Virus record (IMG/VR): IMGVR_UViG_3300030109_003899
Span: 1-23,132 of that record
Length of the DNA stretch: 23,132 bases
Origin: a virus
Direction: 5' to 3' (one strand)
Within the stretch, counting starts at the first letter, position 1. Each line of letters opens with the position of its first letter. This document shows positions 1,929 to 16,885 of the stretch, in pieces. The notes beneath the pieces are model-generated. The model saw only the letters and a program-made list of their open reading frames with translations, was not told where the DNA came from and ran no database searches. The position numbers were made by a program, and so were the translations under genes.

Positions 1929-2294
1929 CTATTTACTGCTTATATCAGCACCTAGCGCTATCTGAAATAGTTCAGATCTTTTACTATATTCATTGTTTAT
2001 CATCTTAACCTCAGCATAATAACCTTTCACCGAGCTTAAGTTTGCTAAGTTATCTTTAGAGAAGAATAGATAGCTATTTGCTCCTGGCGGTTCTACGTTC
2101 AAACTACCGCTTATCCTTATGAACCCTAAGTTTCTGTTTATAAAACTACAAGTACCAAGCTTAGTTATATCTTCCCATGAGCCATTATTTACGTTAAATC
2201 CTCCAGAAGGGTTTGAAGAGGTGTAATACACCGTGTCACCAATCTGTAAAGAATCGTTTATATTATCTATTTGCATTTGTAGTACGTATGGCAT
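1929..2294 (-). CDS. Small conserved virion-associated protein, function unknown
   Basis: The protein has 121 residues and a mostly beta-strand pattern. It contains a GDTVYYTSSNPSGGF segment (residues 19-33), the sequence SYLFFSKDN (74-82), and the C-terminal part GYYAEVKMINNEYSKRSELF (91-110), ending in SSK. From memory, small proteins with a 'GD-VYYT', then 'FSK', then 'GYYAEVK...AELF' layout recur beside tail and fibre genes of marine phages. I know of no assigned function. It has no signal peptide, membrane segment or catalytic motif. It starts 16 nt after the BACON-type gene and lies 38 nt before the next gene, within the same unbroken minus-strand series. A minor virion or tail-tip component is the most likely role, by context only. 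Confidence 0.75.
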   Translation of the reverse strand: MPYVLQMQIDNINDSLQIGDTVYYTSSNPSGGFNVNNGSWEDITKLGTCSFINRNLGFIRISGSLNVEPPGANSYLFFSKDNLANLSSVKGYYAEVKMINNEYSKRSELFQIALGADISSK

Positions 2295-2310: not shown

Positions 2311-5300
2311 TTAGAATGGGTCAATGTTAGGTGGTTGTTGAATTGAAAAAGTATCTAGCGGTGGGGTAACATCACTAATCGGCGTACCGTTCCAAACTCC
2401 TAGCTGAGCAGTTCTTGTAAATTGAGTGTTATTTGCTTCTACAAGGGTAAAATATGCTTGATTTTCCTCAGCGCCATTTTCTCCAACACCGCTAACAGTA
2501 GCCCAATTAAGGTAAACATTACTCAATGGAAAGCTATTAGCACCGTCCCAAATTCTAAGCACCGGTTGGGTTCCATCTGTTCCAACAAAGTGAATAATAT
2601 AGACTCCACCAGTTTCTGCACTTATCTGAGCAATTAAATCATTTTGAGATGTTACTAGCGAATCAGGGCTAGCAATACTACTAGTTAAAGCACCACCGTC
2701 ATATTCTTGAGAAAAACTTAATCCAGGTAAAGATGGCGCATGGATAATTTTTATTATATCATTTGGCTCTCTTTCATCGCTCGCGATACCAGTCTGTAGA
2801 TCAACTTTATAATTTAAATTAGAGCCAGGTCTTAATACTGTCTCGTCGTCAATCTCCCAAACTTTTATATTGCTAAAAGTACATCTTACGCCAGCTCTTA
2901 CAATGAAATGAACCGAATTATTGTTAAGTTTTACTCTACCCGAGCAGCTACCATTACTATCAATTTGCAATTCATTTTGCATTAGAGTGTTTACACTTAA
3001 TCCGCCAAGTGGTCCTGGAGCTCCTTGCTCTGCGCTCCAAGATGCATACTGATATGGTACTATACCTACAGTTAGCGGCACTTGATAATCACCATTAGCC
3101 GCATAATCTTCAACATCAAAAGATATACCAACAATCTTACCTTGCCCGTAAGTGTTATCAACTGATGCAGCATTAAAAGCGTTATCTCCAGTTGGGTGCA
3201 TTATACCAAGAGATATAAACCCAAATCTACTAGCTTCACCTGCTCCAGCAGAGTCTTGCCATAGGTTGTACGCGGCGGAACCGTTAGATGGTTGGGATAC
3301 TGCTCCGTAGTTCCACTTTATTTTATCTGTTCCTTCTGTCTCAATTAACCAGGTGTTTATATCGTTGAAAGCATCAACGGAACCACCAGGCATAGCGGGG
3401 CTTAATCCGGTGTTATTTGTTCTAGGTGTTATTCTATTAAAACCCGTAAGAGGTGGGTTCTGTGTGTTGCCGTTATTAGTAAAGTCTTGAGAAACATCTA
3501 TTAGATTAGTCTTTGGAGATCTTTTGCCAGTCCATATAGCTACGTATTGTTCAGTTGGGTATCCTGTTTTGTTTTTACCAACGCGTATCTGCACTGTATG
3601 ATTTTGATTAGGCCAAGCTCCAAAGCTAGCAGTATTAATATCTTCATCACTAGCATAACTACCTTCTGATGAGTTAAGATGATTCCATCTTGATTTAGAC
3701 TTAGTAGGAGACTGAATTACGTGAGCACTGTTTTCTTCATCAAGCCCTACGTTGTTTAGTCCAGTAGCCACCCAGAAACTGTGAGGTATATCGTAGCTTT
3801 GCCCAAAAGAATTTATTCCATTAATAAACATTTCAGTATTATTCTCATCACTACCGTTTACATGTACTTTATTATTACCAGAAACCCATCTAGCAACAAT
3901 ATAGTCTGGCGGTAAATGATAAAGCGGTTGGTTCTCATCTGAAGCTTCTCCGCCTAAATTCGTGGCAATTGAAAGAGTAAAATTAGATACTTCCGCTGGC
4001 ACGTTTATAGTTTTATTTTCTTCGTTTAGTGCGTACGTTTCGGAGCTAAAGTTTTCGTCATTTTGAAACCAACTAGCGTCAGAAAAGAACATAGTTTCTC
4101 CTTCTTGAATTGTTACAAATACCGTGTTGTTATTATCAAACTGAGCGTTGTTTTCGTGTCTCATTCTTAAACCAAAATAAAACTGTGCCCCGGTAGTGTT
4201 TTCACTATAGTTGATGACAACTTGATGTGTATGTTGTCCGAGTTGAAATATTGGATTAACCTCTATGGTGTAAGGAGGTATTCCGTCAGGTAATATATTG
4301 TCTGTGTCTTCAATAACAACACCGTTAATATTTGGCGCATCTAGTGCAACAAGCTCTAGCACCGGAAAGTTTTGCTCATTGTTAGCAAACGCAAAGTCAG
4401 TTGCGTCATAATCTGAAACCGTAAGATTAAAGGTTACAGATCCAGCAGCACTTGATTGAACAGAACTTCCGTCAAAAATTACTCCAGTCACATTGTATAC
4501 AACTGGGTCCACCCAAGCTCCAGGTTGGAAAAAAGAAATAATGTCCGTTGGAGGGTCAACTCCAGCGGTTACTGAGTCATGCCAAAAACCAAGAGTTTTA
4601 CTTCTCTCTGGGTCTCCAGCAGGGTTTTCTTCAAATCCAGCAGTTAGAGTCATTTGATAACCACCGTTTACATTAGTTATAATAGTAGCACTTGGAGTAG
4701 TATAATAAAATCCATCTACCACGCCAGCAAGCCCAGCGCTCATAGCCGTGTAAGTTTGCGTGTCTACATCCCATAAGCCTATTACTGGCGTAACATCTCC
4801 CGCTGGATTAGTTGGCTTATTAAAATCTAAATTTATATATCTCTGTTGTCCTTCAGGAAGAATATAAGCAGATTGAGAAGTGTCGTAAGTATCTGGGTCT
4901 ACAGGCCAAATATAAGCCTGCAGCTTGTTTGCAGCTTCTTGAATAAAGAAGTATTTTCCATTGTTATTAAAGCTAAAAGCAGGTGCGTGTTCGTTGTAAG
5001 AGTGAAAACCCCAAAGAGTTACTTTTCTATCACTGAAAGAATTATTACCAGTATTAGCTATTATAGTTTTAGTATATTGATGTATTTCATCTGCGACCGC
5101 TATATTGTAGTCGCTGTTATATGCTAAGCCACTTACAGAAACCCAAGTGTCATCGTTATACAAAATTTGATTTACTCCATCAGGTCTATTTAACTCACCA
5201 TAAAAAACATTACTATATTGAACTAAAACTGTTGGTCTAGGATATTGTTTAAAAGTGTCTGCTTGAGTATCGTCAGTAGTTATTTGGTTATATAGATTAA

Positions 5301-7068
5301 ACGTTCCTTGTGGCCAAGCGGTAACACCTGGATCTCTATCTTGGTTTATTTTTACAAACGTAACTAAACCATCTAACAAAGCACTTTCACCCGTAATGGT
5401 AGTTGTGAAAGATGTTGATGGGGTAGAACTTGTAGTAGAAAAGAATACTTCATCTCCATCGAATCTTCTTTCGTCTTGCTCTATAGTAACTGTGCTAGAA
5501 ATAGCGTTATCAAACGGGTGAAGCATCGTTAACGTAGCTGTTCTATTTGTAGAGTTCGCAACGCCGGGATCGATAGAAGTGCCTTGATAATTAAATGCAT
5601 CTTGGTTTCTTATATGAAAGTATCTTCTAAATCGCAGTGTAGAATCGTTATCTATACCACCGACTTGTTGCCATAAGAATCCAGAAAAATCTATAAAGCT
5701 ACTATTCTTATAGTCGTCACTAGGTATTATTGCGTCAGTAGGAAAAAATTCTGGCACTTGAGAAAATTGAAAATAATCGCCATTATTAAGTAGTGCTGCG
5801 GTAACAACTCCTCCTGAGTTAGATACATCTAAGATCAACTCGTAAGTTAACGCATTTTCACCTCCATAGTAAGGAACTTGGTAATAAGATTGAACACCAT
5901 TAAAGTTTACTTCAAACGCATTTTCAATAGCGTTTGGTCTACCTATAACTTTAGCTGATTGAGTAGTAACCACGTCTTCAGGCGCGTCGTTAATAACATA
6001 TTCACCAGGTGGGCTAGACTTAATAAACATGTTTATTGAAGCAGCAATTGCTTGGTTAACAGTTATAGTGTCTCTATTTATAGCGTATATTTGATCGCTT
6101 AAAGTTACAGTTTGATTCCTAGGATTTGCATCTGGCAAAGCGTCTAGATCTATATATAACGTGTAATAAGGGTTGCCTAAATCATCATTTCCATTAGAGC
6201 TAACAGCTGTCTCGCCAGCGTTTGCCCAACCAGAAGCAAATGCTAGTTGCCAAGTGTTGGTTGGTATATTCGTATTAATTAGCAATGTCTTCTCCTCTTG
6301 AGCTAGCGGTCCATAAGTCACTGAGTCAAGCTCAAAATTAGCAAAATACTTAACCTTACTAGAAGGGTGCACTGTTATAATTATGTCATCACTTTCCTCT
6401 ACGTCTGGATCAGCTGTATATGCTAGATAGTGTTTTTTTCTCCAACAATTACCATAGTCATCATTAACTTCATCTTGATATATAAAGTCCCATGTCCCTA
6501 CAGAGTTTTCCACTGTTATCTCTGGCTCTTCAAGATAGTAATAAGTTCCTGGAGTTGTTAGCGTTTCTATACATAGAATATTAGTTTGTTCATACCCAAA
6601 AATTGTTTTCTCTACGTTAAAAACAGTATTACCATTGTTTACGTTGTTAATTTCTGCCAGTGGAATAACTCCATCTATATTTTGAACACTAAGGGTAGAG
6701 TTCAGCCAATCAATTGATCCACTAGCTATAACAGTGAATTTTAATTCTGTAGCACTGTTAGAGTAGTTTTCAAAAGAGTCGTCAAATGTTATATCTATTT
6801 CATAGATAGTAGCTTCTACAATAGCAGGAGTAGCGAGCCACGTTACAACAGCATTAACTTCGTTTCCAGGTTCACCATAGCCAATAGTGTCTACAAAAGA
6901 AAGATTATATAAACCTTCTATGCTAGTTCCAGAAAATTTTGTTGCATCAATAGAATATCCTTCGTTTGGAGTTATTAGCAAAGTACTAGTAGGACCAGTA
7001 GTAGACTCTGTTCCCACCTGAGTTATATTGTAATATACTTTGTCTTGTGCTGTTATTATATTAGGCAT
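2311..7068 (-). CDS. Giant tail/adhesin protein with BACON/Ig-like repeats
   Basis: This protein of 1585 residues is almost wholly beta-strand, rich in Asn, Thr, Ser and aromatics, and poor in Lys. At least eight segments share one pattern: a short Arg/Lys-led strand, a hydrophobic strand often with Trp/Phe, a loop, then a final strand ending in a Gln- or His-containing motif. Examples are NQTVTLSDQ...DTITVNQA (residues 318-340), NRTATLTML...STVTIEQDE (508-533), DRKVTLWGF...YFFIQEA (680-712), RSKTLGFW...IISFFQPG (822-850), YFGLRMRH...VFVTIQEG (964-990) and RTAQLGVW...TFSIQQP (1552-1579). This resembles the C-terminal strands of BACON domains, known from Bacteroidota surface proteins and from crAss-like phage tail proteins, where glycan or mucin binding has been proposed. 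A different jelly-roll-like segment lies at about 1200-1409. No signal peptide is present. It follows the muzzle-like gene by 11 nt. A tail appendage or host-recognition role is inferred. Confidence 0.85.
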   Translation of the reverse strand: MPNIITAQDKVYYNITQVGTESTTGPTSTLLITPNEGYSIDATKFSGTSIEGLYNLSFVDTIGYGEPGNEVNAVVTWLATPAIVEATIYEIDITFDDSFENYSNSATELKFTVIASGSIDWLNSTLSVQNIDGVIPLAEINNVNNGNTVFNVEKTIFGYEQTNILCIETLTTPGTYYYLEEPEITVENSVGTWDFIYQDEVNDDYGNCWRKKHYLAYTADPDVEESDDIIITVHPSSKVKYFANFELDSVTYGPLAQEEKTLLINTNIPTNTWQLAFASGWANAGETAVSSNGNDDLGNPYYTLYIDLDALPDANPRNQTVTLSDQIYAINRDTITVNQAIAASINMFIKSSPPGEYVINDAPEDVVTTQSAKVIGRPNAIENAFEVNFNGVQSYYQVPYYGGENALTYELILDVSNSGGVVTAALLNNGDYFQFSQVPEFFPTDAIIPSDDYKNSSFIDFSGFLWQQVGGIDNDSTLRFRRYFHIRNQDAFNYQGTSIDPGVANSTNRTATLTMLHPFDNAISSTVTIEQDERRFDGDEVFFSTTSSTPSTSFTTTITGESALLDGLVTFVKINQDRDPGVTAWPQGTFNLYNQITTDDTQADTFKQYPRPTVLVQYSNVFYGELNRPDGVNQILYNDDTWVSVSGLAYNSDYNIAVADEIHQYTKTIIANTGNNSFSDRKVTLWGFHSYNEHAPAFSFNNNGKYFFIQEAANKLQAYIWPVDPDTYDTSQSAYILPEGQQRYINLDFNKPTNPAGDVTPVIGLWDVDTQTYTAMSAGLAGVVDGFYYTTPSATIITNVNGGYQMTLTAGFEENPAGDPERSKTLGFWHDSVTAGVDPPTDIISFFQPGAWVDPVVYNVTGVIFDGSSVQSSAAGSVTFNLTVSDYDATDFAFANNEQNFPVLELVALDAPNINGVVIEDTDNILPDGIPPYTIEVNPIFQLGQHTHQVVINYSENTTGAQFYFGLRMRHENNAQFDNNNTVFVTIQEGETMFFSDASWFQNDENFSSETYALNEENKTINVPAEVSNFTLSIATNLGGEASDENQPLYHLPPDYIVARWVSGNNKVHVNGSDENNTEMFINGINSFGQSYDIPHSFWVATGLNNVGLDEENSAHVIQSPTKSKSRWNHLNSSEGSYASDEDINTASFGAWPNQNHTVQIRVGKNKTGYPTEQYVAIWTGKRSPKTNLIDVSQDFTNNGNTQNPPLTGFNRITPRTNNTGLSPAMPGGSVDAFNDINTWLIETEGTDKIKWNYGAVSQPSNGSAAYNLWQDSAGAGEASRFGFISLGIMHPTGDNAFNAASVDNTYGQGKIVGISFDVEDYAANGDYQVPLTVGIVPYQYASWSAEQGAPGPLGGLSVNTLMQNELQIDSNGSCSGRVKLNNNSVHFIVRAGVRCTFSNIKVWEIDDETVLRPGSNLNYKVDLQTGIASDEREPNDIIKIIHAPSLPGLSFSQEYDGGALTSSIASPDSLVTSQNDLIAQISAETGGVYIIHFVGTDGTQPVLRIWDGANSFPLSNVYLNWATVSGVGENGAEENQAYFTLVEANNTQFTRTAQLGVWNGTPISDVTPPLDTFSIQQPPNIDPF
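2839..3471 (-). other. Jelly-roll-like module inside BACON-type protein
   Basis: Residues about 1200-1410 of the 1585-residue protein break the BACON-like repeat rhythm. The segment contains an NDINTW motif, several Gly/Ser loops and a closing strand (CTFSNIKVWEID, residues 1396-1407). That closing strand resembles the end of family 4/9 carbohydrate-binding modules and the end of the insert in the connector protein (FSNVSVKEV). By hand count, 3001-3420 is about 45% G+C, against 30% and 37% in two sampled lines elsewhere in the gene. The boundaries are approximate and the fold is inferred from pattern only. Confidence 0.4.
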
Positions 7069-7079
7069 ACTTATATGTG

Positions 7080-10000
7080 TTATACTTCTTCGTCAGATAA
7101 ATAAGAAAAGTCAGGGGTTACAATAACCGTAAAACCTTCTTGAGGCGAATCTCCATCTACTAGAGTTACATTAGAGTTAGCCATACCTAAACCTTGTACT
7201 GAAAACTCAGAAATGTCTATGTTTGTGGTTAGTTCTGTACCTCCGTCAATTAGATTCGTATGTGTTGTTTCTTTTCCTTTTATATAAGAGAACCACTTGC
7301 CTTCTTTATCCTTAAACCCTTTTGACGTAGCATCTTGTAAATCTGTGTTAATATAATCTATGTACCACCCATCTTTTTGTTCTAGATTATAATATTCTCC
7401 GTCGTTGTAAATAACATCATCTAATACAACATCATTAAACGCGTCGACATTAGCTTGAGTACCTTCGTAGTTTATAGTTCTAAAAGTCTTAACATTACTA
7501 ACAGAATCGTTAAACAAACATGTAATGCTCGAGTTATACTGCTTAGTATAAAAATTATTCCAGCTTTCATTTGTTGCAGTTTCACCGTGTGAAAACATAG
7601 TTCCGTTCTTAAAAGTATAGTAAACGTTATTTAAAGTGACACCAGCTTCTTTAGTGTAAGATTTAAAACTAGACCAACCATCTATAGTTTCATTAAAAGA
7701 TAAAGTATACACGTTCTTAGTATTATTACTATTTAAAACTTCATGTAATGTTAAGTTATACTCTTCTTTGCTGCTATCAAAACTTCCTATTATAGCCTCT
7801 GTATTTACCATTTGATCTTTAAACCAGTCTTTCATGCCAGCGTCAGATATTGGAGTTATGCCGTCCATAGACAGTCTAATGACAGCAGATCTATTTTTGT
7901 CTGTAAAATAACATCTATACTCATCAGCTGTAAAGCTTTCTGGATTTTTAGATATACCATAGTCACCAGCAAAAGGTATAGCTTGACCTAGTACGCTTGT
8001 TGAAGACAGTAATTGCGGATTTCCATCAGCGTTAAATAAAGCGTCTTTTTTAGATAAAATTTTCAAACATTTTCTTTCGCAAAGAGTTAGTAAGTCACTA
8101 TCTCTAGAATACAACTTTTGAATACTGCCATAGTCTTCGTTTATCTCTTTAATTATGTTATCAGCTAGTAAAAACTCATTGAATCTATTAGATCCAATTG
8201 TTTCATTATATATTTGAGAGAATATTATTTTATTTAGATATGTATATTCAGCGTAATTCTCAGACGTTAAGTTAGCTTTAAACCCACTTTGTTTACCACT
8301 AGCAGTATATTTAAACAATTCAGTTCCATTAAAATCATCTCTGATAGTGTCAGATTCAACTCCATTTCCAAAAGAGATACAGTTATACCAAGGAAGTCCA
8401 ATTTCAACATTTGGATCACTACCGTTAATCTTGTGAACGGCTGGTCTAAGTTTGATAAATGTATCTCCAGGCTGTATACTGCCAAATAGTCTAGCTTCTA
8501 CAAACTCTCTATCATTCTTAAATCCAAACTCATCGTTGTATATTCTAACTATATGTCCTAAAGCGGTAGGGCCAATGTAAACGTCTGCGGCAGAATCTAA
8601 ATGTATAGTACAACACGCATCTTCAGAAAAATTTAAACTTTGTTGAGCACCAAATGTTAAAGCCCCAACAACTCTTGTTATTTTTGGATTATTGTTAGCT
8701 CCCCAAGCTAAATTGCTATTTAAGTTATACCCTTGTATCATAGAAACACGCATTCCGTTTCTAATGTGTTTAGTTGCGTTTCTTCTATCTAGTCTTATAG
8801 CGTAAGAATCACTAGCTTCATAATATAAGTCTAAATCTAGCTGCGAGTCTGGTTCAACTTCAAATACCGCCCCGTTGTTAGAATCAAAAGCAGTATAAAA
8901 AACATCCTGGTCGTCATTTTCTGGATTTTCCAGTTGACCTAAAATGTTCTGTTCGCCTACAAGATCTATATTTCTAACCTTAACAAAAAACTTACCCTCT
9001 AACTCATCTGTTGATGCGCTAATAGCTGTTGGTACAATATCACCTCTAACAGTTCCATCTTCATCAACATCACCAATTATAGAAATTATTCTCCACTTAG
9101 AGTTCGCGTCATCAACATAGCTATTTGAATTATGCACTTTTTTACCTACTAAATAGTCTCCAACCTTAACCTTGTTTCTATCAACAGAGTTAAAAACAAG
9201 ATACATGTAGTTTTGTCCTTGGCTACCAAAGGCAGCTTCCATAACTAAGTTTTCAAATTTAGCAGTATTTTCTTTTATAAAAAACTTATAGGTTTCCGCC
9301 CACTCAGGAGCGTTGTTATTTGCTTTAGTAATTAAAGAATTATGATCCTTAGATAATGCCTTCCCTAGAGAAAAGTCGTTCTCCTTACCTATCAGAACAG
9401 AGGATTCTCTACCTAGCTTATCTCTATATACTACTCCTAGGTTGTAATTTCTCAAAGATTTAATTGAGCGTTCACCTTTCATAGCACCGCCTATTTCCGT
9501 TTGCTCAGAAGGAGCCGCCGTGACTCTAAACGTAACGTCACTGATTTGGCTTTGGATCATGCTTGTGTCCTGTTCAGTTTGGGCAAAAAGTCCAATATGC
9601 CCTAAGTCACCCGCGTGAAGATATACTGTTGTCGGTGGTATTTCCAAAACCCAAGACTCGTGATCAGCACCAGGGGCCCACCTATATAAATGTGGTCCGC
9701 CAAGATCAGCAGGGTTTGGGTTGCTTTCAAAAAACTCATAAAACTGAAGTTCAAAGCTTGGTGAATTGATATAGTCAAGGGCTCCCGCTGCCTGTAAAAC
9801 ATCAGTTTGAGAAACCCAAGGACTAAACACGGTGTTTGACGCATCTTGAGGGTCTGTATTTATAGCGAAGCCAGGTAGGAATGTAGCTTGTTGACCGCCA
9901 GCATTACCATTGCCACCGCCAAAAATTGGTAAAACAGCTAATCTAGTTGTAGCTCTTTGTGCTTCCAAATGATCGTAGGTGCCGCCACCAAAATACTTAG

Positions 10001-12383
10001 AAACAAATCTAGCTTCGGCTTCTATCGTGTAGTAGCCTGACACAGGTACTGTATATATACTACTTCCAACACCGTTTCCTAAGTTGTCGGTGAAAGAGTC
10101 AAAGTTATTCCCTGGGTCATACTCCCCAGACATTTGTATATTTAAGCTAGTGTAGAAGCCTCCTTGAGGATTATTACTTATAACTTGATTGTTAATAGGA
10201 AATTCACTATAAACAAAAGGATCTTCTGCAGTACCTTCACCACCTTCCTCGCCGCTCAAAATTGAGAAGTCTCTATAGTCAGTGTAAGCACCCATTACGT
10301 TTGGTGAATTAACCGTTGATGTATTATTGTCGTGACTATTTTGTCTTACCCTGGTGTTTATATCCGCAATTATAAGGTTGTGAGAATGATCTAAAAGATC
10401 GTAATCTTGAGTATAGTTACCATACATTAACCTATTGGCCTGTATTTCTTGAGCCACTGCTTTTTTAGGAACAGCATCGAAAACTCTCGTCTGCTGGTCA
10501 GTTGGCAATGTGAAACCAAAAACTTTTTCTTTTATTTCAAACGATATGACATCCCAACCGCTAGCATCTATATTACTGAAGTCTCCTAGGCCTCTAAGGA
10601 CATAATCGCTAGTATGGCCTTCGTTACAATCAACTGTCTTAAACGAGTACATATTATCCGACTTTTGTGACTTAAATATAAGTTGAATTTTTACTACGTC
10701 TCTAGGCGTGTGGTCGTGCACATAGTCAAATACTTCTATCTTATCTGCTCTATTTGCCATACCTAAGTTAAAGCCGTCTCTAGCTTGGTAAGAGTAGTCT
10801 CCAGCAATAAATGCGGCTGGGGTAAAAGGAGCAAAAGCTGAGAATTCGCCATCTGTGTAGGCGTATCTATAAGAAAATCTTATAAAATCTCTATCGTATA
10901 ATTTATCTTTATTAACAGTTCTAGCAAACCAATTCTCGTCACCTTGATTAAGGTTATAATCTACTCCGCTATCTAAATCGTTGAGGTTAGTATTTATATC
11001 TGTAATTCTATGTATGGTATAGTATCCGGCGCCAGGCCCAGGATTGTCACCGAAAACATCTACTACTTTTACACTTATCGTAGTGCTACTATCTTGTCCT
11101 GTTAGTTCTATTATTTGATTCACCTCCCATGGTGCATCTAAAGGAGTCTGCGGTTGTATATAAATGTTAGTGTTTGCTTGGTACAGTTGGTCACTGCTAT
11201 TAGTGAAAGCCCAAGGGCCATAAACTTGATTTCCTGTAATATCATTGTTTTCAGCACCCCAAACTAGTATTTCTTGAAGATTAGCTCCTGATTGTCCTCT
11301 AGGTATAGCTCTAGGTGAAAGATCTGGGTTTGGTTTAAGAACAGTTATATGCTCTTCTTTAAGATAGTCTCTAGCATATAAACGTTTGTTTTTCTCAATA
11401 ACTAAAAGAGTGTGTGAGTTTAGTCCAATACTTGGATTACCAGCTATAGATCTTTTTATATTTATTTTTTTCGGCTCTGTTCTGCCGTCTGTAAAAAACA
11501 AAAAATCTCCTATAACATTGATAGCGCTTATGTAAGAGTTTTTAGGCGTTCTTGTAACTAATGGGTAGTCTGTGTTTTGCTCTAACTCAGAAGAACTTCC
11601 AGGATTAAAATTTAAAATTCTTTCTTCGCTAAATTTAAGCACAACACCCGCATCAGACATTGCTTGAGTGAACAGGCCTTGTTGATCGTATATTTCAGTA
11701 CAAACGATATTACACGTGCCTACTAACCCGCCTAAAGTAATAGATTTTACAAATATTTTATTTTGCGCGCCATAAACATCATTACCAGCAATATCTATAG
11801 CTTGAACTCTCATGCCAACTCTTACACCTTGTATCGATGAAAAACTTGGAGAACCGTCAAGATTAGAGTATAAGTATGAATCTCTAGTAAAGCTATATAT
11901 AGTTGTAGTGCTATCACCTGGAAATCTAGGTCTACGTCTAACCTCATACAAATCCCTAACTACAAGTTTAGTTTCTGTCAAATCAGGATTAGATTTGTGA
12001 GGTTTAATTTGCCATATAGCGTCAGATTTTTGTCCAAGTAAAACGTTTACAGGTCCTTGATCAAGTTCTATTATAGTGTTAGCAAGATCACTATCTTTTG
12101 CTACAAAATTATACACGTGATTATTTTCTTCATCAGAGTAAACACCTACTGTTTGAGATGTTGTTGATTGCTTATATATTAATTCTGATATAAAACCATA
12201 TTGTAATCCTTGGCGCTGCCACCAGCTATTGCCTCTCAAGGTTTGAGCAGATCCAACATCACTATCATCTGAAGTAGTTATTTCTATGTTTAAAGCGTCT
12301 CTATACTCTCCATTAGGAACTAATCTTTCATCAAGATCTTTGTTCATCTTCCCTTTAAGAAAATTTCTTTTTAACTCAGCCAT
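7080..12383 (-). CDS. Muzzle / tail-stabilisation-like protein with inserted module
   Basis: This protein of 1767 residues starts with the conserved-looking motif DLDERLVPNGEYRDALN (residues 16-32), followed by DVGSAQTLRGN (42-52). Large neck-to-tail 'stabilisation' or muzzle proteins of Bacteroidota phages, including crAss-like phages, begin in this way and form beta-propeller-rich tail barrels. The rest is beta-rich, with WQIKPHK (124-130), a conserved-looking stretch ANRLMYGNYTQDYDL (649-663) and another, SIKSLRNYNLGVVYRDKLGR (973-992). Between those two lies an apparent insertion (about 700-965). Cys residues occur in pairs (1257-1258, 1435/1439). The C-terminal part (after about 1450) includes propeller-like repeats (CYFTDKNRSAVIRLS). 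It starts 3 nt after the second connector gene and precedes the BACON-type gene by 11 nt, matching the expected connector, muzzle, receptor-binding order. The family call is from motif memory; a tail structural role is more certain than the exact name. Confidence 0.8.
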   Translation of the reverse strand: MAELKRNFLKGKMNKDLDERLVPNGEYRDALNIEITTSDDSDVGSAQTLRGNSWWQRQGLQYGFISELIYKQSTTSQTVGVYSDEENNHVYNFVAKDSDLANTIIELDQGPVNVLLGQKSDAIWQIKPHKSNPDLTETKLVVRDLYEVRRRPRFPGDSTTTIYSFTRDSYLYSNLDGSPSFSSIQGVRVGMRVQAIDIAGNDVYGAQNKIFVKSITLGGLVGTCNIVCTEIYDQQGLFTQAMSDAGVVLKFSEERILNFNPGSSSELEQNTDYPLVTRTPKNSYISAINVIGDFLFFTDGRTEPKKINIKRSIAGNPSIGLNSHTLLVIEKNKRLYARDYLKEEHITVLKPNPDLSPRAIPRGQSGANLQEILVWGAENNDITGNQVYGPWAFTNSSDQLYQANTNIYIQPQTPLDAPWEVNQIIELTGQDSSTTISVKVVDVFGDNPGPGAGYYTIHRITDINTNLNDLDSGVDYNLNQGDENWFARTVNKDKLYDRDFIRFSYRYAYTDGEFSAFAPFTPAAFIAGDYSYQARDGFNLGMANRADKIEVFDYVHDHTPRDVVKIQLIFKSQKSDNMYSFKTVDCNEGHTSDYVLRGLGDFSNIDASGWDVISFEIKEKVFGFTLPTDQQTRVFDAVPKKAVAQEIQANRLMYGNYTQDYDLLDHSHNLIIADINTRVRQNSHDNNTSTVNSPNVMGAYTDYRDFSILSGEEGGEGTAEDPFVYSEFPINNQVISNNPQGGFYTSLNIQMSGEYDPGNNFDSFTDNLGNGVGSSIYTVPVSGYYTIEAEARFVSKYFGGGTYDHLEAQRATTRLAVLPIFGGGNGNAGGQQATFLPGFAINTDPQDASNTVFSPWVSQTDVLQAAGALDYINSPSFELQFYEFFESNPNPADLGGPHLYRWAPGADHESWVLEIPPTTVYLHAGDLGHIGLFAQTEQDTSMIQSQISDVTFRVTAAPSEQTEIGGAMKGERSIKSLRNYNLGVVYRDKLGRESSVLIGKENDFSLGKALSKDHNSLITKANNNAPEWAETYKFFIKENTAKFENLVMEAAFGSQGQNYMYLVFNSVDRNKVKVGDYLVGKKVHNSNSYVDDANSKWRIISIIGDVDEDGTVRGDIVPTAISASTDELEGKFFVKVRNIDLVGEQNILGQLENPENDDQDVFYTAFDSNNGAVFEVEPDSQLDLDLYYEASDSYAIRLDRRNATKHIRNGMRVSMIQGYNLNSNLAWGANNNPKITRVVGALTFGAQQSLNFSEDACCTIHLDSAADVYIGPTALGHIVRIYNDEFGFKNDREFVEARLFGSIQPGDTFIKLRPAVHKINGSDPNVEIGLPWYNCISFGNGVESDTIRDDFNGTELFKYTASGKQSGFKANLTSENYAEYTYLNKIIFSQIYNETIGSNRFNEFLLADNIIKEINEDYGSIQKLYSRDSDLLTLCERKCLKILSKKDALFNADGNPQLLSSTSVLGQAIPFAGDYGISKNPESFTADEYRCYFTDKNRSAVIRLSMDGITPISDAGMKDWFKDQMVNTEAIIGSFDSSKEEYNLTLHEVLNSNNTKNVYTLSFNETIDGWSSFKSYTKEAGVTLNNVYYTFKNGTMFSHGETATNESWNNFYTKQYNSSITCLFNDSVSNVKTFRTINYEGTQANVDAFNDVVLDDVIYNDGEYYNLEQKDGWYIDYINTDLQDATSKGFKDKEGKWFSYIKGKETTHTNLIDGGTELTTNIDISEFSVQGLGMANSNVTLVDGDSPQEGFTVIVTPDFSYLSDEEV
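9504..10181 (-). other. C1q/TNF-like beta-sandwich insert in muzzle protein
   Basis: Residues about 735-960 of the 1767-residue protein contain IYTVPVSGYYTIEAEARF (777-793), then TTRLAVLPIF (812-821), and near the end VYLHAGDLGHIGLFAQ (920-935) and ISDVTFRVT (947-955). The order 'YTVP-SGYY-I', then 'V-L-AGD-G-I-LF', then a final strand is typical of C1q/TNF-like jelly rolls. The bases 9601-10020 are about 45% G+C by hand count (190 of 420), against about 28% (51 of 180) in three sampled lines elsewhere in the gene. Boundaries are approximate and the fold is inferred. Confidence 0.5.
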
Positions 12384-12386
12384 TCA

Positions 12387-13259
12387 CTAATGTTTTATTT
12401 GTTTGCTTTTACCTCTTAATACTTGAGTTATTTCTTCAATTTTTATATTAGATAATCTTAACTTAGCTTGACGTTTTGTTGCTCTAGCTTCTTTCTTCAA
12501 CCTATTAACTAAGTTGACTGACATATTAGCTCTTGTAGAAACTATAGAATAAGCTATGTGCTTGTATAGTGCTTCTTCAGCAAACTTATGTACTTGCATT
12601 TCGGCATCAGTTCCTAAACTGTCACTTATATACTTCAATATTATAGTAACACCAGAAAGATTTGAACTAAAATGTATTTTACCTCTTAATTCATCTATAT
12701 AGAAAGATCCATTAGTTTGAGCAAATTGAGGATCTAAACCAAATCTTTGACCTAAATTATAATCTATTATATCATCATCGTAGTCAAAATCATCTTGAGT
12801 ACTTTCAGATGGTTGACTAGACTGATAATTAGTCCAAGTATCTGAATCAGATGTTTGTATTTCATTATTACTAAACGTGTAGCTACCGTCAGCACCTTGT
12901 GTTATTTTTTCTGGATTACTACTAACTCTAGCTGGATATATAACGTGTTCTATGCCGGCTCCATCTGACCAAGTCAATTTAACGTAGTTAACATAGTCTT
13001 GAGGCAAAGTCATCTGTAGTGTTGTTGGAACAGATATTTCAAAAGCTTTTGTTGATTTAAACGTATCAAAGCTAAACTCTTGTAATCCTCTTTTCGCATG
13101 AAAAACTACATCTGTTCTTTTTATCTTACTTATTATCTTATCTTCTCCAACGTATGCTATTATAAATTGATCAATAACATCTTTTAAAGAAGTAAATTGA
13201 TAACCACCTAAGTTGTTACCTCCGTAATACGCACTACCTGTTTCGTTAATTAAAGGCAT
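12387..13259 (-). CDS. Neck connector / ring-type structural protein
   Basis: This protein has 290 residues. The N-terminal part is mixed helix and strand, with the stretch VVFHAKRGLQEFSFDTF (51-67) followed by LQMTLPQDYVNYVKLTW (81-97), which leads into VIYPA (106-110). This layout, a helical start and then a 'LP-DYV-YV-L-W-D' strand, is common in head-to-tail connector proteins of environmental Bacteroidota phages. An acidic, disordered-looking loop (DDFDYDDDIIDY, 156-167) follows. The C-terminal third is helical and strongly basic (about 220-290, ending GKSKQIKH), perhaps for contact with DNA or the portal. The ATG lies 3 nt after the stop of the upstream connector gene, and the muzzle gene starts 3 nt after its own stop, so the three are likely translationally coupled. 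The exact ring position cannot be told. Confidence 0.8.
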   Translation of the reverse strand: MPLINETGSAYYGGNNLGGYQFTSLKDVIDQFIIAYVGEDKIISKIKRTDVVFHAKRGLQEFSFDTFKSTKAFEISVPTTLQMTLPQDYVNYVKLTWSDGAGIEHVIYPARVSSNPEKITQGADGSYTFSNNEIQTSDSDTWTNYQSSQPSESTQDDFDYDDDIIDYNLGQRFGLDPQFAQTNGSFYIDELRGKIHFSSNLSGVTIILKYISDSLGTDAEMQVHKFAEEALYKHIAYSIVSTRANMSVNLVNRLKKEARATKRQAKLRLSNIKIEEITQVLRGKSKQIKH

Positions 13260-13262
13260 ATA

Positions 13263-14435
13263 TTATGATTTTTCTTGTTGAACTTCTTTGTTATCTTTGC
13301 CTGTAGCAAATCCTTGTATATCTTGTTTCTGCATAGCTACACCTGCTATTTCTAGAATTTTATTAACTAGCGTAACTTCTTCAGATGGATGAAGCATAAA
13401 GTTCACCGCGTTAGCACTATTAAATATAGCTTTTTCATTAACTATGTTATACGCCCAGTTTACTCTTCTTGGTTTTATTATATAATTTACTGATAAATTA
13501 CCTTGAGTTAAAGATGAAGGGTATATTGATAAAGATCTATCTTGTTGAACGTACGCAGGGCTTATTTCATCAGGCTTTGTTAAAGCTGATGAGTTTACAT
13601 ATATAAGCTCGTTAGGCAAAAGTCTTTGCAACTCAACAAACCTTCCAGTTGAATCTGTGTAAAGAACACTTCCAAGTCTATATATATCATCAGCGGTAGA
13701 TATTAAAACCTTTTTACCAGTAACTTCCTTAACAGACACATTAGAAAAAACAGCAAAATCTGCAGTGTTATTTACCATATTTGCATGTAGTGTCAAGTTT
13801 GTCGACGCTGCAACAGCGGAAAAGTATAACACTAACGAGAAAGATCCTTGGCCTGGTAAAGCTATATTAGAAACTGAACCCCCAAAACTAATAAAAGAAT
13901 TTGAATTTGGTTGTGTTAAACTAGCGTTAACTTGAGATGTGTCTACAGTCGCAACGACTTTATATAAAGTGCCAGCTACAGTATCTACGGCCTGAGTAGA
14001 GCTTGTTCCAGTGGCATCTTCGTCGTTGTTAAGTTGAATACCAACTAAACCATCAACGTTATAACTGGCTTGACTACCACCTGAGCCCGCGTCTAACGCC
14101 CAGTTAGCAAGTCCAGAGCTAAAATCACCGTTTGTAACTAATTCACTTCCGAATGTAGCTGCGTAAGCTGGATTATTTGTTGTAGTTAGATTTACTTCTT
14201 GAAGCTTGTTAAATACAGATGTTTTTTCATTTATAACATCTAGCATGTCAGAATACTCAGTATCATTCCCGTGTAGTCTGCCAAATTGGTTGATGTCGTA
14301 GAAGTATTGATCGAATATTTCTAACTGAGCTTGATTAGCAAATAAATTGAATTCTTGAGGCGTTACATAGCCTCTTTGTTCTTTGTTGGCGATTGCCAAA
14401 ACTCTTTGATATATTGTATCTATGCTTATCGCCAT
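13263..14435 (-). CDS. Neck connector protein with CBM-like insertion
   Basis: This protein of 390 residues is in three parts. Residues 1-85 carry the connector-like start YVTPQEFNLFANQAQLEIFD (23-42). Residues 240-345 continue in the same style with DDIYRLGSVLYT (249-260), ELIYVNSSALTKP (276-288), LSIYPSS (302-308) and YIIKPRRVNWAY (318-329). Between them (about 97-238) lies a separate beta-rich domain starting ELVTNGDFSSGLANW and ending FSNVSVKEV, the signature layout of family 4/9 carbohydrate-binding modules. The C-terminus is helical and charged. The position after the capsid and a further head gene, and before a second connector, supports a neck or ring role, like tail-tubular or adaptor proteins of short-tailed phages. 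The start is preceded by an A/T leader and, 23 nt further up, by a stable hairpin. The connector role is fairly secure; glycan binding is inferred. Confidence 0.8.
   Translation of the reverse strand: MAISIDTIYQRVLAIANKEQRGYVTPQEFNLFANQAQLEIFDQYFYDINQFGRLHGNDTEYSDMLDVINEKTSVFNKLQEVNLTTTNNPAYAATFGSELVTNGDFSSGLANWALDAGSGGSQASYNVDGLVGIQLNNDEDATGTSSTQAVDTVAGTLYKVVATVDTSQVNASLTQPNSNSFISFGGSVSNIALPGQGSFSLVLYFSAVAASTNLTLHANMVNNTADFAVFSNVSVKEVTGKKVLISTADDIYRLGSVLYTDSTGRFVELQRLLPNELIYVNSSALTKPDEISPAYVQQDRSLSIYPSSLTQGNLSVNYIIKPRRVNWAYNIVNEKAIFNSANAVNFMLHPSEEVTLVNKILEIAGVAMQKQDIQGFATGKDNKEVQQEKS
13722..14147 (-). other. Carbohydrate-binding-module-like insert in connector protein
   Basis: Residues about 97-238 of the 390-residue connector. 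The entry motif (LVTNGDFSSGLANW) and exit motif (FSNVSVKEV) match the usual edges of CBM 4/9-type galactose-binding-like domains. When the segment is removed, the flanking parts read as one connector-like protein. By hand count, 13741-14100 is about 41% G+C (146 of 360), against about 29% (53 of 180) in three sampled flanking lines. Ligand and exact boundaries are unknown. Confidence 0.6.
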
Positions 14436-14501: not shown

Positions 14502-15380
14502 TTAGTTTAACCGCTTTTCAATATTGGAGTATATCTCCATACCTTCGTCAGTTTTAAACCATTGTGCCAAAGCAGAATAAGGGTGCTCGTCAAATGGCAC
14601 GGTCATTAACTTTCTGTCATTAGAAGCCCAGTTAAAAGTTCTTTGATCTGAAGATAATTTTATTATACCCATCTCAGTTGCTCTAATACCAAAGTTTCTA
14701 AGAATAACATTTTCATCATTAGCTAATTCTAAGAATAATTTAGGATTTTTCTTAGCATATAGTAACAAATCTCTTCTTAGCTCCTTAGAACTCATGTCTG
14801 AGACCTTAGATCCAATCTCTACTCTCATAATAGCCTCAGCCATATCAATATCTATAGATTTAGCAGCTGTTAGCGCTTCTATTTCCATTTCTAACACTTC
14901 TATTTCACTAGCAGCATTAGCTACTGGTTTTTCCTCATAAAACATTGAATCTCTATCCGGGTGATATAAAGAAAGTAGTTTCTGTAAAACTGTTTTTTCT
15001 TTCCCAACAATTAACATACCGTTTCTAAAGATAATATGTTCTAATCTTTGGTCTCCTTTCATTTCGTCTACAAACACTGTTTTTTGGTTTTGACAATATT
15101 TAAGCTCTCTTTCGTAGCCTTGCTCTTCATCAAACCAATGGATGTTTGCCGACTTTATAGATCTTGATAAAGGTTTTTTACCACCTTTCAATCTATATAT
15201 TCTGTCTTTCATTTCCCAACCATCATTAAGAGTTTTGTATTTTTTCTCTACTCTTTTTGGTTTTTCTTTAACGACAGGTGTTTCTTCAATAGCTACTTCT
15301 TCAACAGCTATTGGTTTCATTTCGTTAGTAGCTTTTACTTCAGGTGCTACTTCAACCTTCTTTGTTTGCTTTTTAGCCAT
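14502..15380 (-). CDS. Hypothetical head protein downstream of major capsid gene
   Basis: This protein has 292 residues. A low-complexity Lys/Glu/Val-rich N-terminal arm (1-47) looks disordered. Residues 48-150 form a beta-rich core with IYRLKGGKKPLSRSI (61-75), KTVFVDEMKGDQRLEHIIF (100-118), the turn RNGMLIVGKEK (119-129) and YHPDRDSMFYEE (139-150). A helical region (155-215) follows, with a run ELRRDLLLYAKKNPKLFLEL (200-219), and then a C-terminal domain ending SNIEKRLN. I recognise no family with confidence. A gene at this place, between the capsid and the connectors, could encode a decoration, head-completion or head-interior protein. The start codon lies inside the end of the capsid gene, an overlap of 34 nt in another frame; this ATG fits because the coding style and the Lys-rich arm begin there. 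Confidence 0.8.
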   Translation of the reverse strand: MAKKQTKKVEVAPEVKATNEMKPIAVEEVAIEETPVVKEKPKRVEKKYKTLNDGWEMKDRIYRLKGGKKPLSRSIKSANIHWFDEEQGYERELKYCQNQKTVFVDEMKGDQRLEHIIFRNGMLIVGKEKTVLQKLLSLYHPDRDSMFYEEKPVANAASEIEVLEMEIEALTAAKSIDIDMAEAIMRVEIGSKVSDMSSKELRRDLLLYAKKNPKLFLELANDENVILRNFGIRATEMGIIKLSSDQRTFNWASNDRKLMTVPFDEHPYSALAQWFKTDEGMEIYSNIEKRLN

Positions 15381-16885
15381 AATATAATATACTTCATCAT
15401 CATAAAGTTGTTAGCACCTTGAGTAACTAAACATCTTTCTGATAAGTAGTGAACTTGCATTGCATCAAGTGCAGATGTAGTAGCACCTACAGAACCAGTA
15501 ACCCAAGTTTTCATTTTTCGGTTATCAGTTTGAGAAGCTCTATAACGTACGTGTAAGAAAGGACGTTTCATGTTCTTTCCTAAAGCTTGATCATAAACAG
15601 AAGATACACCAGCTGGTATAATCATACCACGGATAGCTGCGCTACCTGCTCTATCATTAATACCACCACGAGTAGAAGCATCGTTTAAGTATTTCATGTC
15701 AGACTTATAGAAGTCGTAAGATCCTCTACGGAATCCAGAAAAACCTAAGTTTAATGCCATATCTTCAGAGTTGTCGAATACTCCGTAAGAAGTACCACCA
15801 GCACCGTAAGAATTCATAGAAGCTAACATATCGTCAATAGCCAAGCTTGTAGCACGGTTAACAAACATCATGTTTTCTTCAATAGCACCTTGACGATCGA
15901 ATTCAGCTAAGATAGCGTCAAATTCAGCTAAGTCAGTAGCAGGGTTAATACCTGTAACACCAGAAGTAACATTACCTCTTGAAGTGATAGCAGCGAATAA
16001 ACCTTCAGTACCAGCGTTAGTGCCAGCATCAGCAGCGCCTCTAATCTGACCGTTATCACCGAAACCAATTAAAGATGCAGCAACTGTTCTCTCAGCTTCT
16101 AACATAGACATCTCTAAGTAATCAGTGAAACGAGCACGAGTATCGCCCTCAGCTTTCAAGTACCAGAAGTAACCGTTTTGACCTTCTTCGCCAGAAACTT
16201 CAACCCAACCAATTTGAGAAGCATCAGATCCAGAGATCTCGTAGTAATCCTTCATTATGATTGGCTTGTTAGAGAAAGATCTGAAAGTAGGTGTCAAAGC
16301 TGTTCTTTTGTCAGCTTCAAAAGTACCAGTGTTATCAGTGTATTTCTGACCTTTACCGTACTCAGAACCTACAACTAATAATGTTGCTGTACCATCAGCT
16401 AAAGCTGAAGCCGCTGAACCGTAAGGCTCAAAGCTTACAACAGCAGATTCTGGAGTTTCAACGATTAACGCTCTCTCTACAGTACCAGCTTGTGCAATTA
16501 ATACAACGTCGTTAGTTCTAATACCGTGACTAGCCACAGCAAAACCATCACCAGCAATATTTCCGTCAATGTCAGATACTACAGTAAAAGTACCGTTAAC
16601 ATCTCCATCAGCATCAATAGTTCCGATATAAGATAAGTGTAAACGTGATTGTTCAGACCAGACAACTTGATCAGATGTCATAGCCTCTTCAGCACCTACT
16701 TGAGCAAGAAATCCTGAGATAGTTCGGTTTCCGAAAACCTCAGCTTCTTTTTCCATAAGTTCTGGTAAATATTGTTGCGCCCAGTCGTTTCCTGCACCAG
16801 ACGTAAAATCGATATAGTTGCTAGCAAGTGTTTGTTGCTGCGGTGCAGCTACACTATTTAACAACGGTCCATTAGTAATTGGCAT
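15347..16885 (-). CDS. Major capsid protein (HK97-type fold)
   Basis: This protein of 512 residues forms the icosahedral shell. Evidence is the position right after a scaffold-like gene and the sequence style: an N-terminal arm (1-60), a long helix-like segment ARFTDYLEMSMLEAERTVAA (251-270), a Gly/Ala-rich loop, the motif EENMMFVNRATSLAIDDML (336-354) and FLHVRYRASQTDNRKMKTWV (443-462), typical of P- and A-domain strands in capsid proteins of Bacteroidota phages. Residues about 85-178 are a separate beta-rich Asp/Gly/Val segment (for example FTVVSDIDGNIAGDGFAVAS) that may be a surface insertion. The last residues are unusual: after QGANNFMMM the frame continues for 15 more residues (KYIILWLKSKQRRLK) into the next gene. 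Hand count of one line gives about 38% G+C, higher than many neighbours, as expected for a highly expressed gene. The ATG at 16883-16885 follows an A/T-only leader. Confidence 0.9.
   Translation of the reverse strand: MPITNGPLLNSVAAPQQQTLASNYIDFTSGAGNDWAQQYLPELMEKEAEVFGNRTISGFLAQVGAEEAMTSDQVVWSEQSRLHLSYIGTIDADGDVNGTFTVVSDIDGNIAGDGFAVASHGIRTNDVVLIAQAGTVERALIVETPESAVVSFEPYGSAASALADGTATLLVVGSEYGKGQKYTDNTGTFEADKRTALTPTFRSFSNKPIIMKDYYEISGSDASQIGWVEVSGEEGQNGYFWYLKAEGDTRARFTDYLEMSMLEAERTVAASLIGFGDNGQIRGAADAGTNAGTEGLFAAITSRGNVTSGVTGINPATDLAEFDAILAEFDRQGAIEENMMFVNRATSLAIDDMLASMNSYGAGGTSYGVFDNSEDMALNLGFSGFRRGSYDFYKSDMKYLNDASTRGGINDRAGSAAIRGMIIPAGVSSVYDQALGKNMKRPFLHVRYRASQTDNRKMKTWVTGSVGATTSALDAMQVHYLSERCLVTQGANNFMMMKYIILWLKSKQRRLK

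Follow-up and report, generated by a model that had tools for sequence, protein, structure and literature searches.

Gene order and affiliation

The stretch of DNA analysed here (the window) is a virus record of 23,132 bases from IMG/VR, in which the structural genes form one minus-strand block. The features that matter for the following discussion are listed below; "slot" denotes the position directly behind the muzzle gene.

20556-22772, minus strand: TerL
18134-20551, minus strand: portal
15347-16885, minus strand: virion structural protein according to PHROGs, taken as the major capsid protein
13263-14435: virion protein of 390 aa, matched by phrog_14543 in two stretches
7080-12383, minus strand: muzzle protein of 1767 aa, with PF25729 (crAss_MUZ_C) at residues 1609-1702
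2311-7068, minus strand: muzzle-adjacent protein of 1585 aa, with a putative docking module and a BACON-like array
6487-7017, minus strand: N-terminal module of that protein (residues 18-194), the proposed docking domain, common to other slot proteins and to fused muzzle C-termini
1929-2294, minus strand: 121-aa gene after the slot, with a similar-sized gene in the same place in many loci

Past the 121-aa gene lie a 202-aa gene and then one cut gene, and further virion proteins are encoded elsewhere in the block. The 390-aa virion protein may carry an inserted domain between its two phrog_14543 stretches. The muzzle protein scores 35.3 bits with PF25729 against a cut-off of 27 and is, by this domain, a Crassvirales muzzle. 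The 1585-aa ORF starts 11 bases behind the muzzle gene and has exactly the extent given in the earlier note, on the minus strand.

In tblastn, the TerL of the window is nearest to that of MW202828.1 from Manatee Spring (64% identity), followed by the Flavobacterium elemo phages from a Baltic Sea mesocosm (46%) and then by Cellulophaga phages such as phi13:2, which the cited part of PMC10172136 terms the outgroup, and phi19:3; Tenacibaculum and Maribacter phages are also among the further matches. The window virus is a crAss-like phage of an apparently aquatic lineage, its aquatic origin being suggested by relatives from the Baltic Sea and a freshwater spring. The earlier view of BACON-like repeats in a tail protein from a crAss-like phage that is probably aquatic is supported by the profiles, relatives and predicted folds described below. 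The Asn and aromatic richness also ascribed to this protein turns out not to be special, as it contains 9.4% N and 11.4% FYW, compared to 8.3% and 11.3% in the neighbouring muzzle protein.

In two of the named relatives (L002 and L003), genes annotated as GroEL and GroES lie ahead of the structural block on its upstream side. TerL and muzzle genes of this phage group also occur inside a 1.05-Mb contig titled as an Aenigmatarchaeota chromosome (L125, CP070801.1), which may be due to misassembly, faulty binning or a more unusual cause.

The slot behind the muzzle and its N-terminal module

We surveyed the slot in at least 100 IMG/VR muzzle loci (L004-L103), MW202828, elemoA and the window, 103 loci in all. 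In many of the listed loci the muzzle gene is followed by an ORF of about 400-1000 aa and then by a gene of nearly 120 aa; others have a far longer muzzle ORF with the small gene directly after it. The 1585-aa protein is the longest among the 65 complete slot ORFs listed (median 526, next 1040). Its nearest relative is L005, whose truncated slot ORF matches residues 4-534 in BLAST (E 1.8e-21); the L025 slot ORF and the L007 muzzle extension give weaker matches (E 0.002 each). Among 71 slot ORFs, Pfam domains at E 0.1 or better include Big_9 in 10 and Cadherin_5 in 9, and BACON in a single ORF, left unnamed in the output, at E 0.088. One of the 71 contains DUF285 repeats (E 1.3e-242), by eye the one in L083; in that locus (12297-13493) and in L061 (11598-12731) an additional ORF lies between the muzzle and the slot protein.

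What many of these proteins have in common is the N-terminal module. An iterated profile started from residues 1-200 converges on 51 of the slot and muzzle entries, and a profile of 19 slot proteins, built without the window or L005-L008, finds residues 18-194 at 34.4 bits, a score reached by none of 1000 shuffles; the same profile also recovers L005 and the fused forms in L006-L008. The module occurs in 51 of the 103 listed loci, in 36 as a separate gene (window included) and in 15 within the muzzle ORF, while among the 52 loci that lack it, 18 have no ORF behind the muzzle in the fetched stretch. A quick tree with many weak forks, built from 98 muzzle cores after 5 of the 103 rows had been dropped as too short, requires at least six changes of state. 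Further contigs (L149-L152), 63-97% identical to the L008 extension, have the module fused likewise, with four BACON-like units each. A second slot family was considered, but its iterated profile merged with the docking family and was not used.

Given its fusion to the muzzle elsewhere and the order of the genes, the module most likely sits on the muzzle, and the fact that it exists both fused and separate provides natural evidence of its location. As judged from sequence comparison, it marks a variable slot at the presumed tail tip. This muzzle-docking module and the variable slot go beyond the text of the earlier note and are the larger finding of this work.

Beyond the module, relatives are scarce. 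In viral contigs no confirmed relative was found of the whole window protein, of residues 537-1196 or of the 222-residue stretch past unit 6 (see below), and the L005 slot ORF matched itself only. The window protein and the proteins of three relatives retrieved nothing at E 0.01 by tblastn from 50,697 phage records, and P0001 nothing at E 1 from the 12 genomes behind the MAG loci in a search run without a positive control.

BACON-like units

The repeated part of the protein is summarized below, with scores from two profiles that contain no sequence of the window (the first one and its re-derived version).

6046-6279, minus strand: BACON-like unit 1, residues 264-341 (8.4 bits first, 5.8 re-derived; matched about 270-342)
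5464-5736, minus strand: BACON-like unit 2, residues 445-535 (13.3 bits first, 12.4 re-derived; matched core 505-533)
4930-5184, minus strand: BACON-like unit 3, residues 629-713 (5.2 bits first, 7.0 re-derived; matched 635-693)
4516-4743, minus strand: possible BACON-like unit 4, residues 776-851 (motif only; missed by both profiles)
4090-4332, minus strand: BACON-like unit 5, residues 913-993 (7.8 bits first, 5.2 re-derived; matched 947-989)
3475-3744, minus strand: weak BACON-like unit 6, residues 1109-1198 (1.9 bits first, -0.2 re-derived; matched 1126-1183)
2569-3474, minus strand: stretch of ~300 residues between units 6 and 7, residues 1199-1500
2320-2568, minus strand: BACON-like unit 7, residues 1501-1583 (4.5 bits first, 4.8 re-derived; matched 1517-1561)

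The Pfam BACON models PF13004 and PF19190 match nothing in the window at E 10 and nothing in the protein, and comparison of the whole protein with Pfam, PHROGs and PDB by sequence gave chance-level matches or nothing (FokI_cleav_dom at E 0.047, one PDB chain at E 0.31). By the curated Pfam cut-off the protein is therefore not a BACON member, and we call its units BACON-like. The strand motif [VIFLY][TSFE][VIF]xQ occurs in it 6 times against 1.09 expected, a count equalled by 2 of 2000 shuffles.

As a bacterial reference we used 13 BACON domains, some of which share one protein; they come from 8 genomes out of 61 sampled in the phylum to which G001, the bin of L104, belongs. The profile made of these domains alone places L006, L008 and L007 at the top, with L072 and L005 behind them, and scores 3.1 bits on the window, which 9 of 1000 shuffles also attain; L072 outranks both L005 and the window here, yet it is no BACON carrier according to the later profiles. 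When the 13 domains were combined with 11 repeats of L006-L008, and with no sequence from the window or L005, five window units scored above 4 bits and a sixth 1.9, and the top-1, top-3 and top-5 scores were reached by none of 1000 shuffles. The boundaries of these 11 repeats came from a profile iteration at E 0.05 that contained window hits; this iteration had drifted into cadherin-like entries and once placed a shuffled decoy at E 0.018, so it is not regarded as evidence, and the repeats were found anew without window or L005 sequence. The result was the identical 11 repeats with near-identical boundaries, and the same five window units. The re-derived profile scores 12.4 (residues 506-532), 7.0 (635-693), 5.8 (270-342), 5.2 (948-986) and 4.8 bits (1517-1561) on the window, with the sixth at -0.2, and again the best, top-3 and top-5 scores were reached by 0 of 1000 shuffles. 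Among 174 slot and muzzle entries, ranked by their top three units, the window comes fourth (25.2 bits) and L005 fifth (15.0), the next entry having 6.6; with the first profile the values are 29.5, 16.1 and 9.1. Only L006-L008, the relatives from which the profile was built, outrank the window. Judged by homology to a profile that excludes the query, five units of the protein can be linked to BACON through its relatives.

The same connection appears in profile-profile comparisons, for which the Q motif had helped to pick the window units and L005 was counted among the relatives: the window matches the relatives' repeats with P 84.3% and E 7.2e-6, these match bacterial BACON with P 91.2% and E 9.9e-7, and the window matches bacterial BACON directly with P 15.5% and E 0.0017. 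A search against all of Pfam (E up to 1) names BACON alone in the muzzle extensions of L006 (E 0.0046), L008 (0.0076) and L007 (0.36), and names FKBP26_C in L005 (E 0.16). In L006 and L008 the PF13004 scores are 23.8 and 20.0 bits, both under the 25-bit cut-off. At E 1 or better this model matches 3 of the 50 other records with the docking module (those of L006, L008 and L073), and it exceeds the cut-off in one, L073 (L145), in a separate 200-aa frame that was not counted; since 7 of 14 control genomes also match at this lax limit, one of them over the cut-off, the weak rows of this search mean little by themselves. On the muzzle tree, the five carriers of BACON-like units group into a single clade with support 99*, with one change. 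Thus, as far as sequences can tell, the link of the window protein to BACON runs through its relatives.

These results modify the description of the array in the earlier note, which had proposed at least eight BACON-like repeats starting from about residue 203. Eight are not borne out, as five units are supported, one is weak (1126-1183) and one is indicated by its motif only (776-851); the array begins near 256-270, and residues 18-194 form a different conserved module. That the repeats are highly divergent is correct, as self-BLAST finds no internal repeat at all. Structure prediction indicated an Ig sandwich in units 1 and 7, but did not resolve residues 536-716 or most of 1195-1475. The BACON likeness as such is upheld by the profiles, by the relatives and by the fold predicted for two units, although the protein itself lies beyond the reach of the Pfam BACON models. 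Of the BACON hallmark residues in the seven units, W is found in 5, N in 4, R in 5 and Q in 7 (the last count is circular, because Q was used for choosing the units), and all four occur together in two units.

The AF2 model of residues 1-716 (37 rows) has a mean pLDDT of 57, with good regions at about 21-100, 161-280 and 301-345 and poor quality beyond 535. For residues 1195-1585 (14 rows) the mean is 47; the last unit is mostly at 66-84 and shows seven predicted strands, and the rest is mostly below 50. VIA-align superimposes the model of unit 1 (242-343) on residues 42-130 of 3zmr with Z 8.2, rmsd 2.6, 83 aligned residues and 17% identity, where 3zmr ranks 7th, with TDE_0362 structures (Z up to 9.6) among those ahead of it. 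Unit 7 matches 3zmr with Z 6.2, rmsd 3.2, 82 aligned residues and 21% identity, the highest identity among the best 50 rows; it also matches 4zmh with Z 6.2, in a part that may or may not be the BACON portion of that structure, and Ig-like chains with Z up to 7.4. According to the cited part of PMC11216935, 3zmr and 4zmh were the two BACON or BACON_2 proteins among crystal structures in February 2024. The best Foldseek rows against PDB are generic Ig-like chains, none of them under E 0.001 for unit 7, and a fold search against viral models returned, besides general Ig-like and tail proteins, two hits with the name BACON domain-containing. The two units with confident models are hence predicted to be Ig-like beta-sandwiches of a kind not specific to BACON; as the fold matches include generic Ig-like proteins, the BACON identity is supported mainly by sequence.

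The stretch between units 6 and 7 stands apart. Nothing in the fetched loci is related to residues 1196-1460, and residues 1195-1470 have no Pfam match. Visual inspection had suggested a carbohydrate-binding jelly roll at about 1205-1440, but no analysis backs it. The stretch 1199-1500 could be the true receptor-binding part.

A putative host-recognition arm on the muzzle

Among known systems, the closest counterpart is the crAss-BACON of p-crAssphage, described as an eight-unit array near tail genes, with W, N, R and Q hallmarks and a function given as unproven (de Jonge 2019, PMC6949934, in the part cited here). Like it, the window combines several divergent units, here BACON-like, in one ORF with adjacent crAss-like tail genes; this comparison uses the published description of crAss-BACON rather than its profile or domain tree. 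Unlike crAss-BACON, whose contigs are largely from human gut or sewage (same source), the window apparently lies outside these environments, its units are too divergent for PF13004 and PF19190 and are separated by wide linkers and the stretch 1199-1500, and the gene immediately follows that of the muzzle, its N-terminal module being part of the muzzle protein in other loci. The BACON domain of BoGH5A (PDB 3ZMR) is an Ig-like sandwich that the models of units 1 and 7 resemble, but it is a single N-terminal domain, proposed in the cited portion of PMC11216935 to be the spacer of a membrane-bound enzyme, whereas the window has an array. The domain of the crAss001 muzzle gp44 (PF25729) is found in the upstream neighbour; the window ORF itself is no muzzle, but carries the module that other loci append to the muzzle C-terminus. 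Finally, the Big_9 and Cadherin_5 slot proteins of related viral contigs occupy the same slot, with other Ig or cadherin-type domains instead of BACON-like units. The parts of openly accessible texts on crAss-like phages, marine phages and BACON that we drew upon describe no aquatic BACON array, which does not imply its absence from print; PMC10136315, PMC7886860 and PMC12386605 served, in part, as general background.

We consider it fairly probable that the 1585-aa protein is a host-recognition arm docked on the muzzle at the tail tip, with BACON-like Ig units as spacer or binder. Residues 18-194 would be seated on the muzzle hexamer that gates the crassvirus tail (in crAss001 the muzzle is hexameric and has been proposed to act as a gatekeeper, PMC10172136, in the part cited); this placement is suggested by the 15 listed loci in which this module belongs to the muzzle polypeptide. 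Behind the docking module, five to seven divergent BACON-like Ig sandwiches, with linkers and one ~300-residue stretch between them, would form a long, flexible spacer, bind a polysaccharide or protein on the host surface in a weak and multivalent manner, or do both. The target cell would probably belong to Bacteroidota, and contact at the arm could be passed on to the muzzle. Presence of the protein in the virion, its docking and copy number, the host, the ligand and the signalling to the gate are what we infer from the gene order and the homologies. We have counted against the arm the missing Pfam BACON hit, the weak bacterial-only profile, the full hallmark set in only two of seven units and the non-specific Ig fold matches. 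Against docking on the muzzle speaks the arrangement in crAss001, where the tail fibres are anchored to hubs that surround the barrel and not to the muzzle (PMC10172136, cited part).

That same arrangement favours an interpretation in which the BACON-like units only distance the muzzle tip or stiffen the tail and other fibres recognise the host; bacterial BACON has likewise been argued to be a spacer unlikely to bind carbohydrates (PMC11216935, cited part). We regard a purely structural spacer as unlikely, because the slot differs widely among relatives in length and domain type (Big_9, Cadherin_5), as expected of host recognition, and because residues 1199-1500 could bind. It is less likely still that the repeats are generic, non-homologous Ig-like domains that resemble BACON by a common strand pattern alone: the blank Pfam result, the weak direct comparison with bacterial BACON and the other Ig-like proteins in the best Foldseek rows would suit this explanation, but the transitive chain of profile-profile matches, the recognition of five units by window-free profiles and the naming of BACON alone by Pfam in three relatives contradict it. 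An enzyme or depolymerase with accessory domains could be hidden in the stretch 1199-1500 among the repeats, for which no family was found; we find this very improbable, since no notable enzyme family was detected by sequence in Pfam, PHROGs or PDB and the match to FokI_cleav_dom is far below its cut-off.

The favoured reading, that of a muzzle-docked arm, may tentatively be extended to the aquatic crassvirus relatives as a group, although we would not yet rely on it: they might possess a variable adhesin slot on the tail gate, where the module switches between standing as its own gene and extending the muzzle at its C-terminus, and presents Ig-type arrays that can be exchanged (BACON-like, Big_9 or cadherin-like). 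If the scenario is true, the recognition of the host would act directly on the gate through which DNA and cargo proteins leave, in contrast to crAss001 with its barrel-hub fibres. It is also of interest for BACON itself, on which published views conflict, at least in the parts of the sources cited: a spacer according to PMC11216935, and an adhesin according to PMC13370021 (2026), where BACON-carrying proteins of gut phages were displayed on another phage as epithelial adhesins. BACON-like arrays are now extended to a lineage with named relatives from the Baltic Sea and a freshwater spring, in which gut mucin is no obvious ligand, and the question of spacer or binder becomes testable.

A MAG contig (L104/L174) has the TerL closest to that of the window (82%). 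At E 1 the docking profile does not match its slot ORF, nor does the BACON-like one, and its muzzle has at most about 50% identity within the matched pieces. With the closest TerL combined with a different slot ORF and a distant muzzle, the tail modules look exchanged.
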